Assembly (NCBI GenBank): GCA_013696965.1 | Contig: JACCXN010000096.1 | Location: forward strand, 1 to 8,386 | DNA from: Bacteroidota bacterium | GTDB taxonomy: Bacteria > Bacteroidota > Bacteroidia > JACCXN01 | Reading direction: 5' to 3' | Length of the DNA: 8,386 bases | Shown here: positions 138-8,375 of the stretch, one piece after another | Numbering within the stretch: the stretch's first letter is position 1 | How the letters are laid out: the number at the start of each line of letters is the position of its first letter | The notes under the pieces: generated by a model | Told to the model about the DNA's origin: nothing | Database searches by the model: none | What the model saw: only the letters and a program-made list of their open reading frames with translations | Made by a program: the position numbers and the translations under genes

Positions 138-264
138 TAACACTGCATACCCTCAAGTGGGGTGCTTGGTGCATTTTGAAAAGTCAATGCTTTCTACTAC
201 CTTTCGTGCCGGTTGACAGAAACGCTGCAAACCAGCCCCACCTGCGGGTATGCAGGAAACGTTA
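138..264 (+). repeat. attC-like palindromic site A
   Basis: This is the first of three homologous 127-129 bp imperfect palindromes. It runs from TAACACT to AACGTTA. The arm at 145-162 pairs with the arm at 236-253 at 16 of 18 positions (GCATACCC with GGGTATGC, GTGGGG with CCCCAC). The outer TAAC pairs with GTTA. Arm sequences differ from sites B and C in a compensating way (GTGGGG/CCCCAC here, GTGGCG/CGCCAC there), so base pairing appears to be conserved. The outline (outer 4-bp box, short spacer, inner stem, large central loop, terminal GTTATGC) matches an integron attC site, and the ends resemble the Vibrio cholerae repeat as I remember it. The 137 bases to its left do not resemble the left arms of sites B and C. 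A MITE or structured RNA is an alternative reading. Confidence 0.65.
176..205 (+). promoter_or_regulatory. Promoter-like pair in the loop of site A
   Basis: TTG at 176-178, a 19-base spacer, then TACCTTTC at 198-205. Positions and spacing equal those in sites B and C, but the last G of TAnnTTTG is C here, so this copy may be weaker. It points right, towards the lipoprotein gene. Confidence 0.4.
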
Positions 265-513
265 TGCGGCAGCCTCTTGGAACGCTATCTCCAAAAGACT
301 TTCTGGCTGTTTTGGCTTTTAGCATTTAAGAAATTTTCTGCAAACTTTCAACACCTGGAGAGGCCATCGCTTCGTGCTTGTTAATTTCCTCACGCACAAA
401 AAATTAAATTTCCCTTACGCAAAATGGCACATTTATTTTTGCCTCATACTCACTAAAAGCCATTCACACATGGCAAAAATAAAAGAGCCATTTCCCAGCC
501 CAAAGTACCTGCA
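262..513 (+). repeat. Conserved right arm of module A
   Basis: This 252-bp non-coding stretch is shared, at reduced identity, with 1878-2120 and 3820-4065. Shared blocks include TTTTCTGCAAA near 333, GCCATCGCTTCGTGCTT near 363 and a closing TACCTGCA at 506-513. It contains the hairpin at 422-493. The gene begins 84 bp after its end. No coding pattern is shared among the three copies beyond short frames created by the repeat itself. Confidence 0.7.
422..493 (+). repeat. Covarying hairpin in right arm A
   Basis: The outer stem AAATGGC (422-428) pairs with GCCATTT (487-493). After 3-base internal loops, the inner stem TTTATTTTTGCC (432-443) pairs perfectly with GGCAAAAATAAA (472-483). The loop is 28 bases. 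The same hairpin with compensatory substitutions recurs at 2031-2101 and 3974-4044. If transcription starts in the palindrome loop, the hairpin lies in the untranslated leader of the following gene. Confidence 0.65.
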
Positions 514-556
514 CTGAATTTTCTGAAGTTCTCTCTTAATAATTATAAATAAATGC

Positions 557-564
557 TATGTTTG
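557..564 (+). promoter_or_regulatory. TAnnTTTG -7 element before the lipoprotein gene
   Basis: TATGTTTG matches the Bacteroidota -7 box and ends 33 bases before the start codon. I see no good TTG/TTTG 19-21 bases upstream, so it is only half of a consensus promoter. The same octamer precedes the TonB-like operon at 2164-2171. Confidence 0.4.
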
Positions 565-597
565 TGTAGTTTAATTTGAAAGCTATTTTTATTTAAA

Positions 598-1518
598 ATG
601 AAAAAATATTTTATAATTATATTGCTTTCTGGCCTTTTGGGATGTCAAGAAGATCAAATTGATGATAGCTCAAAAAGAAATGAAAACTGGGCTTGGTTCA
701 TAAATGAAGATACTGGAAAAGGAAGTTGGTTGCCCATTTCTGATAAAATGATAGTTTCAACTGGAGACTATACATTATTTTTTTCAACAGGGGAAATATT
801 AGAGCAAGGAAAAATAAAAGACAGTTTGAATGTTGATACTGCTCGAGTATTTAATAAATCTGGAGAGCTCTTATATCTCAAAATTTTTAACGATAAAAAT
901 AATACTGGTAAATATTATATTTCTGATGGAGACTTTACTGAATATTATAATAACGGAAAATTATGGTTTGAAGGAGCTGTTGAAAATCATGAGGAAATAG
1001 GACTTTGGACAGAATATGATAAAGACGGAAATATTTTATGGAAAGGTAATTTTTATAATGCTTTTTATTGGAGTTCCAATTATTATTTAAATGGATCTAT
1101 AAAAGACAGCTCATATTTTGAAAATAATAAGCAACAAGGAATTTATAAACTTTGGTATGAAAATGGAAAAATATCACAAATAACAAATTGGAAAGATCAT
1201 TTACAAGATGGGGAACAAATTTATTTTCATGATAATGGACAATTAAGAGGTAAAGAATTTTGGATTTCTGGACAAATTCATGGTCTTAGTATTCATTATC
1301 ATTCAAATGGGAACTTACATTATGAGTCAAATCATTACTATGGTGTTCGCAACGGTTTAAGAAAAGATTTTCATGATAATGGAAATTTGAAGTCTGAAGG
1401 ATATTTTGAAAAAGGGGTTGCGTTTGGAGACTGGCTATGGTACAATTTAAATGGGAAATTATATCAAAGAGATTCTTATAAAAATGGAAAGCTTATAAGT
1501 ATTGAAAAGATTGACTAG
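598..1518 (+). CDS. YwqK/MORN-repeat lipoprotein
   Basis: This 306-residue protein has a lipoprotein signal: K2-K3, a hydrophobic run 4-15, and lipobox L-L-G-C with Cys16. The next residues QEDQ are partly acidic, which in Bacteroidota can favour surface display. From about residue 115 to 300 there are eight repeats with a conserved aromatic-x-x-NG-x-L/I core. The glycines fall at 120, 144, 166, 190, 214, 238, 262 and 286, a near-perfect 24-residue period. Repeats of this kind belong to the MORN_2/YwqK group, often annotated as 'toxin-antitoxin system YwqK family antitoxin'. No partner toxin gene is present, so I do not claim that role; a binding or scaffold function is equally possible. It is the only gene of the proposed cassette 1. 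The ATG follows an A-rich leader without a Shine-Dalgarno site, as is normal in the phylum. The gene is visibly more AT-rich than the arms around it. Confidence 0.88.
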   Translation: MKKYFIIILLSGLLGCQEDQIDDSSKRNENWAWFINEDTGKGSWLPISDKMIVSTGDYTLFFSTGEILEQGKIKDSLNVDTARVFNKSGELLYLKIFNDKNNTGKYYISDGDFTEYYNNGKLWFEGAVENHEEIGLWTEYDKDGNILWKGNFYNAFYWSSNYYLNGSIKDSSYFENNKQQGIYKLWYENGKISQITNWKDHLQDGEQIYFHDNGQLRGKEFWISGQIHGLSIHYHSNGNLHYESNHYYGVRNGLRKDFHDNGNLKSEGYFEKGVAFGDWLWYNLNGKLYQRDSYKNGKLISIEKID

Positions 1519-1539
1519 CCTGTATAAACCGCCTGCACA

Positions 1540-1607
1540 GCCAAAAGCATATTCACAATTCCCACCAGCCAAACACGCAATCCAAAAATTGCAAATAAGC
1601 TTCTGGC
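1540..1607 (+). repeat. Left-arm hairpin of module B
   Basis: The arm at 1540-1560 (GCCAAAAGC ... CACAATT) pairs with the arm at 1587-1607 (AATTGCA ... GCTTCTGGC) at 17 of 21 positions around a 26-base loop. It lies 22 bp past the lipoprotein stop. A T-rich tract starts about 14 bases after the stem, so it could help end transcription, but the spacing is too long for a standard intrinsic terminator. A homologous hairpin is at 3480-3540. Confidence 0.5.
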
Positions 1608-1751
1608 TTTTCCAAAAGAATTTAATTTTTTTTCCTCCCCTCTTTAAAATTAACAAACACCCTCACGCACCGCCCAACTGTTGCTATTCATTGACATTGT
1701 GCTGTTCGCAACTAATCGTGACTTTCTATAAAGGTTGAAAGGCCGACCGCA
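1541..1751 (+). repeat. Conserved left arm of module B
   Basis: This non-coding sequence aligns end to end with 3481-3693. Shared blocks include ATTCACAATTC, AAATAAGCTT, AACACCCTCAC and TTCGCAACTAATCGTGACTT. Nothing similar precedes site A within the window. It fills the space between the lipoprotein stop and palindrome B, together with the hairpin at its start. Confidence 0.65.
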
Positions 1752-1880
1752 TAACACTGCATACCCTCAAGTGGCGGTCTAGGTGCTCTATTGCAACGCC
1801 TTGGATTTCTATTAACTTTGCTGCCCGCGGTTATTGGTTCGGTGCTGTAATCGCCACCTGCGTATATGCAAATAACGTTA
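1752..1880 (+). repeat. attC-like palindromic site B
   Basis: This is the second copy, 129 bp, from TAACACTGCATA to TATGCAAATAACGTTA. The inner arms GCATACCCTCAAGTGGCG and CGCCACCTGCGTATATGC pair at 14 of 18 positions. The left spacer between TAAC and the inner stem is 3 bases (ACT) and the right one about 7, leaving unpaired bases, as in folded attC sites. The left flank CCGCATAAC matches the start of the preceding unit rather than its own right flank. It closes the proposed cassette 1. Confidence 0.65.
1791..1820 (+). promoter_or_regulatory. Promoter in the loop of site B
   Basis: TTG at 1791-1793 is followed by exactly 19 bases and TAACTTTG at 1813-1820, a full match to the Bacteroidota consensus. 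Element sequence and spacing are identical in site C. Transcription would start near 1827 and give a leader of about 390 nt before the TonB-like gene at 2216, including the hairpin at 2031-2101. Confidence 0.55.
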
Positions 1881-2120
1881 GCCGTAAGCATTGCGGGGCG
1901 GTGCGACAGACGAGACAGTCAGCCTTTTTCATTGAGCACCTTTTCTGCAAATTTAGAACGTTCAGGGCAGCCCTTCGCTTCGTGCTTTATTCTTTTCATC
2001 GCCCCGCAAAAAACAAAATTGCCAACGCAAAAATCGCACATTTGCTTTTGCCGCATTCGCTCAAAATTCAACACACAAAGGCAAAAGCAAAAGAGCAATT
2101 TCGCCAGCCTAAATACCTGC
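1878..2120 (+). repeat. Conserved right arm of module B
   Basis: This non-coding arm is homologous to 262-513 and 3820-4065 and ends in ATACCTGC. Besides the conserved hairpin at 2031-2101 it has a copy-specific perfect 9-bp inverted repeat, TGCGGGGCG (1892-1900) with CGCCCCGCA (2000-2008), that brackets the middle of the arm. It is more GC-rich than the genes beside it. Confidence 0.7.
2031..2101 (+). repeat. Covarying hairpin in right arm B
   Basis: The inner stem TTTGCTTTTGCC (2041-2052) pairs perfectly with GGCAAAAGCAAA (2080-2091). The outer stem AAATCGC (2031-2037) pairs with GCAATTT (2095-2101) with one mismatch. Relative to copy A, two adjacent inner base pairs are changed on both sides (TTTAT/ATAAA to TTTGC/GCAAA), which is compensatory change. 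Confidence 0.65.
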
Positions 2121-2163
2121 TTTTTATAAATCATAAAAACTTAATTAAATCTAAAAATATTAG

Positions 2164-2171
2164 TATGTTTG
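2164..2171 (+). promoter_or_regulatory. TAnnTTTG -7 element before the TonB-like operon
   Basis: TATGTTTG ends 44 bases before the ATG at 2216. It is the same octamer as at 557-564 and lies outside the conserved arm. The -33 half is not recognisable in the AT-rich DNA upstream. Confidence 0.4.
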
Positions 2172-2215
2172 TTAAATATTATCAATTCCTTTTTAAATTT
2201 AATTAAACAGAAAAA

Positions 2216-2629
2216 ATGATAAGCAGACTTACTTTTTTGACACTTCTAGTTTGTGTTTTTGTAGGACAAAATTCATTCTCTCAGGAAAAAGCAGAGATAG
2301 ATACCACAGAGATATGGCATGCAGTTGATGTAATGCCCGTATTCCCTGGCAATGAACCTGCATTATTTAAATTTATTAGCAGCAATTTGAAATATCCAGA
2401 AGAAGCTAAAACTAAAAATATCAAAGGAACTGTATTTATTGAATTCGTTATTGATACTGTTGGTAATGTTCGGCCAGAGACAGTTAAAGTAAAAAAATCA
2501 TTACACCCTTTATTGGATGACGAAGCGATTAGAGTGGTCAAGCTTTTACCACAGTGGAAACCTGGTTTTATAACAATATTAAACAAACCGGCAGAAGTCA
2601 ATTACGTGTTACCTTTTCAATTTAAATAA
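2216..2629 (+). CDS. Secreted TonB C-terminal domain protein
   Basis: This 137-residue protein has an N-terminal signal peptide (hydrophobic 4-18, likely cleavage near F-S-Q, residues 21-23). One TonB C-terminal domain covers about residues 41-137. Recognisable blocks are PVFPGNEPALFKFISSNLKY-PEEA (41-64), G-TVFIEFVIDTVGNV (71-85), DDEAIRVVKLLPQWKPG (101-117) and the closing VLPFQFK. True TonB proteins have an uncleaved membrane anchor and a proline-rich periplasmic spacer, and both are missing. It therefore probably does not couple the proton-motive force to transport. Such short TonB-C proteins are common in Bacteroidota and their role is unclear. It is the first gene of the operon in proposed cassette 2. 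No ribosome binding site is seen, and the leader is A-rich. Confidence 0.85.
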   Translation: MISRLTFLTLLVCVFVGQNSFSQEKAEIDTTEIWHAVDVMPVFPGNEPALFKFISSNLKYPEEAKTKNIKGTVFIEFVIDTVGNVRPETVKVKKSLHPLLDDEAIRVVKLLPQWKPGFITILNKPAEVNYVLPFQFK

Positions 2630-2649
2630 TACATACAAGTAATTTTATT

Positions 2650-3438
2650 ATGAAACAGTTTATAGTTATTATATTATTTTGTTTTAGTGGTACATTGACA
2701 TATTCACAACCTCAAGATTCAAAGCCCATTCAGTTTATTTATGGAATAAATCAATTAGATAGTCTTATTCTAGACTTGCAGATGTTTCCTGGGGACGCAA
2801 TGATGGATATTAGTTTTGTTAAAATTCCTTTGGTTTTTACTATTACAGATAGCGGAAAAGTAAAAGACATTAAAATTTCAGGAAATTCAACAGTAAAGCT
2901 TGCAGGTTTTACTGGAAAACCTAGAAATGAAAGACTCATCAAAAAATATTTCGAATCGCAATCTATTGAAATTTGCAAAATGACTGAAGGCTTATGGATT
3001 CCAGCAAAAGAAAATGGGAACCCTATTTCAGACACTATTTCACATACATTTTCATTTTCAGTACAAAGGACTTATAAAAAGGTTTTTACTGGAGGAAATA
3101 ATTTTATAGATTATAATTATGACAATTATGAAGACATAGAGAACTATCCTACGGACAGAATTTATAGGGATATGTCAAAAAACATGACAAATGCACTTTT
3201 AGGAAAAAGGTATCATGCAAACTCTACCAAATATGTTCAAAGGAATCAGTTATTAATTGCGGAAATACTTATTGATATAGCAAAATTAAAATTAGATAAT
3301 AATGTTGATTTGCTTTTTGACCATGGAATTATAAAACAAAAGCTAAACAAATTAAACGAAGCTTGTGACAGTTTTGCAAAAGGTGCTATTTTAGGTGATA
3401 CTGAAGCGGAGCAAATCAAAAATAAGTATTGTAAATAA
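2650..3438 (+). CDS. Secreted protein, divergent TonB-C-like plus repeat-like tail
   Basis: This 262-residue protein starts 20 bp after the TonB-C gene stop and is very likely cotranscribed. It has a signal peptide (about residues 1-19, T-Y-S-Q). Residues 50-140 look like a diverged TonB C-terminal domain: a strand pair FTITDSGKVKDIKISG (63-78), a helix LIKKYFESQSIEICKM, then W116-IPAKENGNPI and a final strand SHTFSFSVQ (131-139). This matches the W-x-PA-x-x-NG-x-P signature of the family. Residues 141-200 match nothing I know. The end (236-261), NEACDSFAKGAILGDTEAEQ and KNKYC, resembles the last TPR/Sel1-like helical hairpin of Bacteroidota proteins that end in a conserved YC. Function is unknown. 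Pairing with another TonB-C protein suggests the two may act together in the periplasm. Confidence 0.8.
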   Translation: MKQFIVIILFCFSGTLTYSQPQDSKPIQFIYGINQLDSLILDLQMFPGDAMMDISFVKIPLVFTITDSGKVKDIKISGNSTVKLAGFTGKPRNERLIKKYFESQSIEICKMTEGLWIPAKENGNPISDTISHTFSFSVQRTYKKVFTGGNNFIDYNYDNYEDIENYPTDRIYRDMSKNMTNALLGKRYHANSTKYVQRNQLLIAEILIDIAKLKLDNNVDLLFDHGIIKQKLNKLNEACDSFAKGAILGDTEAEQIKNKYCK

Positions 3439-3479
3439 GTTGTAAAGAAATTCCGGTACGAAAAGCCTTTCACACAATC

Positions 3480-3540
3480 CAAGCACATTCACAATTCGCT
3501 CAAAATCCAACCCTCAAACCAAAAATTGTAAATAAGCTTG
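3480..3540 (+). repeat. Left-arm hairpin of module C
   Basis: The arm at 3480-3496 (CAAGC ... ACAATT) pairs with 3524-3540 (AATTGT ... GCTTG) with three mismatches in 17. It is the homologue of the hairpin at 1540-1607, with ACAATT/AATTGT strengthened relative to that copy. It lies 41 bp after the operon stop and is followed by T- and C-rich tracts. Confidence 0.5.
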
Positions 3541-3693
3541 TATTTTTCCCATAGAAGAATTTTGTTTTTTTCTCCCCCCTCTTGAAAAGAATAAAACACC
3601 CTCACCCGCAGAATCCCTGTCACTATTCATTAGTGTTGCACTACTATTCGCAACTAATCGTGACTTCCTAGAAAAGTGGGTAATGCCAACGGC
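3481..3693 (+). repeat. Conserved left arm of module C
   Basis: This non-coding arm aligns along its length with 1541-1751. The longest shared run, TTCGCAACTAATCGTGACTT, lies near 3648. With the hairpin it occupies the space between the operon stop and palindrome C. Confidence 0.65.
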
Positions 3694-3822
3694 TAACATT
3701 GCATATTCGCCAGTGGCGGTCTAGGTGCTCTATTGCAAAACCTTTAATTTCTATTAACTTTGCTGCTCACGGTTTTTGGTTCGGTGCAATAATCGCCACC
3801 AGCGTATATGCAAATAACGTTA
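3694..3822 (+). repeat. attC-like palindromic site C
   Basis: This is the third copy, 129 bp, from TAACATTGCATA to TATGCAAATAACGTTA. The inner arms GCATATTCGCCAGTGGCG and CGCCACCAGCGTATATGC pair at 15 of 18 positions. The centre is nearly identical to that of site B, while the arms have drifted together. It closes proposed cassette 2. No fourth copy is visible to the right in either orientation. Confidence 0.65.
3733..3762 (+). promoter_or_regulatory. Promoter in the loop of site C
   Basis: TTG at 3733-3735, a 19-base spacer and TAACTTTG at 3755-3762 fully match the Bacteroidota consensus, as in site B. It points right, but no plus-strand gene follows within the window, so this copy appears orphaned. 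Confidence 0.5.
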
Positions 3823-4065
3823 GCTGTAAGCATAGCGCACCGGTGGGACAGAAGGGACAGTCAGCCTTTTTCATTGAGAAACTTTTGTGCAATTTTCAAC
3901 GCCTCAAGCAAGCCATCGCTTCGTGCTTTGTTTTTTTCCTCCCCGCATAAAAAAATTAAAATCCCAACCGCACAAAATAGCACTTTGCCTTTTGTCACAA
4001 TCACACAATCTAACACACCTTGCCAAAAGTCAAAAAGCTATTTTTACCGCCCCCAAGTACCTGCA
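3820..4065 (+). repeat. Orphan right arm of module C
   Basis: This is a 246-bp homologue of 262-513 and 1878-2120, ending in GTACCTGCA. In the other two copies a plus-strand gene starts 84-95 bp later; here none does. It is probably the 5' end of a third cassette whose gene was lost or never captured, or the edge of the array. Confidence 0.65.
3974..4044 (+). repeat. Covarying hairpin in right arm C
   Basis: The outer stem AAAATAGC (3974-3981) pairs perfectly with GCTATTTT (4037-4044). Copy A has AAATGGC/GCCATTT, a compensated G-C to A-T change. The inner stem TTTGCCTTTTGTCA (3984-3997) pairs with TGCCAAAAGTCAAA (4021-4034) at 12 of 14 positions. Confidence 0.6.
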
Positions 4066-8267: not shown

Positions 8268-8339
8268 GGTAAATAGCAATACACAACTTTTGGTAAATAA
8301 GAATACACAGAAAATGGAAACAAGAGTGCACAGCTTTTA
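8268..8339. repeat. Three 24-bp tandem repeats upstream of the GIGT-repeat gene
   Basis: Units start at 8268, 8292 and 8316 with exact 24-bp spacing. The first two share GGTAAATAnnAATACACA. The third is diverged (GGAAACAAGAGTGCACAG). They lie 16 bp or more upstream of the gene start and may be regulatory iterons or simply an expanding minisatellite. The 24-bp period keeps any reading frame open, which explains the spurious upstream extension. Confidence 0.6.
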
Positions 8340-8375
8340 AACTTCAAAGGGGGTACCCCCTTTGAAGTTTAAAAG
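8334..8375. repeat. Perfect 42-bp palindrome
   Basis: The left half CTTTTAAACTTCAAAGGGGG plus T is followed with no spacer by its exact reverse complement; the centre is GGTACC at 8352-8357. It overlaps the third tandem repeat by 6 bp. It has no T-tract immediately outside the stem, so it is not a standard terminator. It could be a protein-binding site, an insertion-sequence end, a bidirectional terminator or an artefact of joining inverted sequence near the window end. Confidence 0.8.

Follow-up and report, generated by a model that had tools for sequence, protein, structure and literature searches.

Bacteroidota are considered to be nearly devoid of integrons; in Bacteroidetes proper a single complete one is reported, in Salinibacter ruber M1 (PMC9024848). 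Three palindromes lying between genes of a Bacteroidota contig, analysed over its whole length of 8,386 nucleotides (hereafter, the window), raise the question of whether such a genome carries an integron-type cassette system and which enzyme would move its cassettes. From the sequence comparisons set out below, the window is very probably part of a chromosomal gene-cassette array, in an integron-type system with a dedicated tyrosine recombinase that is not IntI.

Sites and cassettes of the window

The sequence-only reading of this locus had described three attC-like palindromes, and all three were confirmed, on the same strand, starting with TAACAYT and ending with AACGTTA. Sites were scored with a covariance model built from 16 site copies (hereafter, the R1 model). 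The features of the window, all on the forward strand, are as follows.

138-264, +: attC-like site 1, 127 bp; R1 model 113 bits; bottom-strand fold z = -5.0
262-1877, +: putative cassette A, 1616 bp, running between G^TT in site 1 and the G in site 2
334-512, +: leader after site 1, the same as that at 1881-2125; hairpin 422-493
598-1518, +: cassette A gene, 306-aa MORN-repeat protein (PF07661, E 8.9e-25), in the orientation of the site
1561-1751, +: trailer common to cassettes, directly before site 2
1752-1880, +: attC-like site 2, 129 bp; R1 model 151 bits; closes cassette A
1791-1820, +: promoter-like TTG-N19-TAACTTTG in site 2, the same at 3733-3762 in site 3; a consensus match only
1878-3819, +: putative cassette B, 1942 bp, running between G^TT in site 2 and the G in site 3
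1881-2125, +: cassette leader, common to other cassettes of this genome (about 20 copies); hairpin 2031-2101 (inverted repeat)
2216-2629, +: cassette B gene 1, coding for a 137-aa protein with a TonB C-terminal domain (PF03544, E 4.1e-14)
2650-3438, +: cassette B gene 2, ORF for a 262-aa protein
3509-3677, +: the same trailer before site 3 (shared sequence)
3694-3822, +: attC-like site 3, 129 bp; R1 model 158 bits; closes cassette B
3823-4064, +: the same leader after site 3, opening a further cassette whose closing site lies beyond the contig

The arms of the sites pair at 16-17 of 20 positions without gaps, and the compensatory changes that had been reported between them agree with the covariation found across 80 sites. 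The accompanying claim of an unpaired large centre failed for sites 1 and 3, whose centres are partly paired in fold predictions. Of the two strands, the bottom one gives the better fold in all three sites; compared with shuffled sequences, z was -5.0 for site 1 and -4.0 for site 3, whereas site 2 by itself, at -0.4, folds no better than they do. Each site had also been placed 3' of a gene in the same orientation. This stands for site 2, preceded by the MORN-repeat gene (598-1518), and for site 3, preceded by the ORFs at 2216-2629 and 2650-3438, all on the same strand; the gene preceding site 1 is beyond the window. As the earlier reading had noted, the window holds no recombinase gene. A Pfam search gave no match for the 262-aa protein of cassette B, and an Rfam search returned nothing relevant.

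The start of cassette A after site 1, GTTATGCGG, is complementary to CCGCATAAC preceding site 2, and the start of cassette B after site 2, GTTAGCCGT, is complementary to ACGGCTAAC preceding site 3. Folding predictions for the circular forms of the two cassettes gave a single long stem in each case, with the bottom strand folding better. Leaders of about 245 nt and trailers of about 190 nt recur in cassettes of this genome and are nearly absent from other genomes, and the leader hairpin arms (for example, GCACATTTGCTTTTGCC...GGCAAAAGCAAAAGAGC) covary between copies (422-493, 2031-2101 and about 20 further ones).

A promoter in every site was considered and rejected as a general feature, since the promoter-like matches were good in 11 of 29 sites of this genome and in 2 of 51 sites of other genomes. 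At the contig end, a perfect 21-bp inverted repeat with a spacer of 0 (8334-8375) is possibly a terminator or an assembly artefact.

Cassette boundaries, site structure and cassette exchange

Cutting at GTT would place the bases that follow the GTT of one site, in the excised circle, opposite those preceding the AAC of the next site, and we compared these two stretches along the arrays. Across 23 cassettes of the window's own genome (hereafter, the source genome), the mean complementary run was 5.7 of about 7 positions against 1.9 when shuffled, and none of 100,000 shuffles reached as high, whereas the two ends of one same site matched at chance level (1.7). A cassette that opens with GTTG, for instance, has a site of its own that opens with CAAC. 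The rule was repeated on 31 cassettes of named genomes, an independent set absent from the data that yielded it (5.58 of 7 versus 2.80), and about ten consecutive cassettes of Flavobacterium enshiense DK69 obey it. Complementarity of this kind across neighbouring sites is expected of cassettes cut at GTT. By comparison only, the cut would lie within or adjoining CGTT.

Counted by searches and on individual contigs, the source genome (3.86 Mb) contains about 46 sites according to the R1 model, a covariance model of the kind that the earlier reading had proposed, and 39 by blastn, numbers that set chance aside. Contigs with at least two sites always carry them in a single orientation. Contig ends often fall exactly at a site, which we infer to be an assembly effect of near-identical 127-bp repeats.

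Across 80 sites of the source genome and its relatives, 95.3% of pairs are kept, double-changed cells number 354 compared with 107 in shuffles, and the covariation score is 0.56 versus 0.13 with double changes in 17 of 21 pairs, figures that lean towards the structure because the alignment was fitted to the model. Sliding the structure along the alignment left only 29-37% paired. As for attC sites, the structure is conserved while the sequence varies. The constant bases are AAC-A at the left and A-A/C-CGTT at the right, which gives an asymmetric loop by GTT, 4 nt against 1 nt, and this conserved loop could set the polarity of the site. The R boxes depart from those of attC, with RYYYAAC in 4 of 73 sites and GTTRRRY in 8 of 74, AAC and GTT alone being conserved. 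In sites of 126 bp (for example, L092:14366-14491), the unpaired centre resembles three or four imperfect copies of a unit of roughly 20 nt (TGCTTC.TA..ACA.TTTG), to which a protein may bind. A short site of 51 bp that lacks the large centre and resembles short attC sites adjoins an attI and a recombinase (L103:9709-9759).

Evidence of exchange came from a 1,436-bp cassette encoding a MerT/HMA protein and a second ORF, which is 97-100% identical in six genomes, F. enshiense DK69 and five others (G048, G171, G081, G077 and G097), covering five different families of the class. The match starts and ends at site edges and the flanks are unrelated, at 38-63% identity; a plasmid search with this cassette gave no match. 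In two copies the sole difference is the base preceding CGTT, either A or C (cassette ends in L132, L216 and L217). The two bases are mixed at both ends, which hints that this position may lie in the exchanged stretch.

The repeated unit is a gene plus a site, one-oriented, bounded by GTT and mobile, as in integrons; neither dispersed copies unrelated to genes nor target duplications of the MITE kind were seen. A dispersed structured repeat at gene ends, such as a MITE or an RNA element without site-specific cassette exchange, would fit the spread of sites over many contigs and the conserved flanks in the source genome. It would leave the uniform orientation, the boundary complementarity between neighbouring sites, the attI prediction described below and the whole cassettes common to different genomes with edges at GTT to be accounted for, and we give it almost no weight. 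A transposon or MITE was rejected as well, with one orientation per contig, edges at the GTT of neighbouring sites, and neither target-site duplications nor free orientation, and a REP-like repeat was rejected on the same grounds as the MITE and IntI integron readings.

Among 64 cassettes with a median length of 966 bp, 70 ORFs run along the site direction and 13 oppose it, and in other genomes' arrays the distance from GTT to the start of the gene is typically 10-80 nt. The cargo includes a BanI-type restriction enzyme that shares a cassette with its methylase, GmrSD, YhcG/DUF1016, TIR and MerT proteins, secreted proteins and many unknowns.

The recombinase at the array heads

The earlier reading had allowed for either an integrase-less cluster or a distinct cassette system, and had suggested a search for a tyrosine recombinase near site copies. 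Via partial TIGR02249 matches, two were reached in the source genome, both at heads of site arrays: a 646-aa enzyme on contig C44, with a site 1.5 kb further on where the contig ends, and an enzyme of 375 aa on contig C14, followed by two sites. The first option is thereby dropped and the second upheld. The window's contig is joined to neither C44 nor C14 in the assembly.

With the left end of the first site of an array as bait, one attI was predicted at L036:11293 (GTTATAAGC) and another 90 nt beyond the stop codon on C14 (GTTATAGGGC). An attI beside the recombinase gene, as in integrons, was predicted by at least 6 bases after GTT in 21 of 25 recombinase-array loci and was not found by this bait search in the other 4; baits swapped between loci gave 0.5%. 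Measured from the 3' end of the recombinase gene, most predicted attI sites are 70-210 nt further downstream. Two loci (L093 and L101) have the gene directed away from the array, the arrangement of classical integrons. Among 54 sites close to named recombinases, 50 are downstream on the same strand, and many sites are far from any recombinase.

The enzymes differ from IntI in several respects. The spacing from K (KGKKDR) to HxxR (HxLRHS) is 58-59 residues in 13 of 13 array recombinases and 100 in 16 of 16 IntI measured. The additional domain specific to IntI (the I2 region) is missing, profile positions 178-238 being unmatched, and the TIGR02249 scores of 223.6 and 195.9 bits fall below the family cut-off of 265. 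In a quick unrooted tree the array recombinases form a Bacteroidota clade apart from IntI, with two branching elsewhere. The C44 enzyme has a 340-aa N-terminal extension (L036:9214-10240) with repeats of the WS..(H/K)KCWY kind, of which the C14 enzyme has one copy, weakly similar to DUF5710. A structure model of the C14 enzyme (mean pLDDT 88.5) matches XerA and IntI4 and has an extra N-terminal alpha/beta domain. Plasmids of Klebsiella, Aeromonas and Acinetobacter carry relatives with 46-52% identity, one of these relatives being annotated as TnpF.

Several traits are shared with chromosomal (sedentary) IntI integrons: a one-orientation cassette array, a palindromic site closing each cassette, a joint within GTT, an attI next to a tyrosine recombinase, and a cassette cargo of restriction, other defence, metal-related and unknown genes. 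These shared traits, including single-gene cassettes, would also be expected if an ordinary IntI integron, or a CALIN of one, had entered Bacteroidota and the sites were plain attC moved by IntI, and true IntI is frequent in the phylum's other classes, with 105 positive among 395 genomes. Among 295 genomes of the class, however, true IntI occurs in 1 and the sites in 180; the enzymes at array heads lack the insertion and fall outside the IntI clade, and few sites fit the attC boxes. The R1 model found no site beside the two IntI genes examined (L209 and L210), the direct repeat beside the classical IntI of L209 being a weak control only. In 30 IntI-positive genomes there were few site matches, none near IntI in the cases compared. 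One genome, G322, has both, with IntI at 304 kb and attC-like sites at 2.2-2.5 Mb, and it is the clade recombinase, not IntI, that adjoins two of these sites. We consider it highly unlikely that IntI moves these cassettes. The present system also differs in that attI is usually at the 3' end of the recombinase gene and that the sites, about 126 bp long, have an asymmetric loop of 4:1.

XerA, XerC and XerD share the catalytic fold and are, besides IntI4 (2a3v), the best sequence and fold matches; unlike them, the enzyme here heads cassette arrays, and no dif-type housekeeping role is implied. Housekeeping XerC/XerD might nevertheless move the cassettes, as in Xer-exploiting elements, the neighbouring recombinase being incidental. 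That 39% of the genomes in which no clade recombinase was detected still have sites speaks for this, whereas the recombinase stands at the attI end, with a predicted attI adjoining, in at least 21 loci, and recombinase and sites co-occur (p = 1e-13); such a role for XerC/XerD is very improbable. Integrative elements that use host Xer offer a folded single strand as a possible substrate without the I2 helix (PMC4792948), and differ from the present system, which has a dedicated recombinase and multi-cassette arrays. Among simple tyrosine recombinases, an "integron-like" subgroup shows incomplete conservation of the insertion (PMC8138268); the accessible portion of that source describes no arrays, attC-like sites or attI for the insertion-less members.

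Distribution and proposed mechanism

Across the sample of 295 genomes of the class, which is Bacteroidia judging by the named relatives (site threshold E <= 1e-8), sites were detected in 180 (61%), the recombinase in 156 and classical IntI in 1. Recombinase-positive genomes had sites in 126 of 156 cases, compared with 54 of 139 recombinase-negative ones, a difference for which the p value of 1e-13 is uncorrected for kinship. The 54 genomes with sites and no above-threshold recombinase could reflect loss, assembly gaps or another recombinase. A Chryseobacterium plasmid carries the recombinase and five sites. Inside its cassette array lies a group II intron reverse transcriptase (L236:18738-20054); group IIC introns target attC.

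In the mechanism that we propose, a cassette would consist of a gene, or a few, and one attC-like site, and the dedicated tyrosine recombinase coded at the array head would act at GTT, both in the attI next to the recombinase gene and where the attC-like site ends in GTT. Cassettes would be inserted, excised as circles and reshuffled, keeping one orientation throughout. The attC-like site would act as a folded bottom strand, with polarity perhaps given by the 4-nt versus 1-nt loop near GTT, and the enzymes on C44 (646 aa) and C14 (375 aa) would be those acting on the sites of the source genome. The recombinase carries an N-terminal domain of its own and no IntI-specific insertion.

The boundary test, the predicted attI, the covariation and the same cassette in different genomes support the cassette-array reading, and we conclude from these comparisons that the system probably functions like an integron yet falls outside the IntI definition. 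We found no earlier description of it in the open-access literature. The arguments are about evenly balanced as to whether this is a second widespread integron-type system, evolved on a Xer-like enzyme that has a DNA-recognition domain of its own and lacks I2, a domain thought to be indispensable for recombining single-stranded attC; its strand-exchange chemistry might differ too, given the flip between A and C before CGTT in otherwise identical cassettes.

A functionally equivalent system would be present in 61% of the sampled genomes of one class. It carries restriction, other defence and mercury genes, occurs on at least one plasmid and exchanges cassettes between families. The I2 domain and extrahelical bases are regarded as co-evolved (PMC4792948), and the system would be a natural test of the need for the I2 helix in recombining folded sites. 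Such a test bears on how integrons arose (PMC4792948; abstract of PMC7790495).
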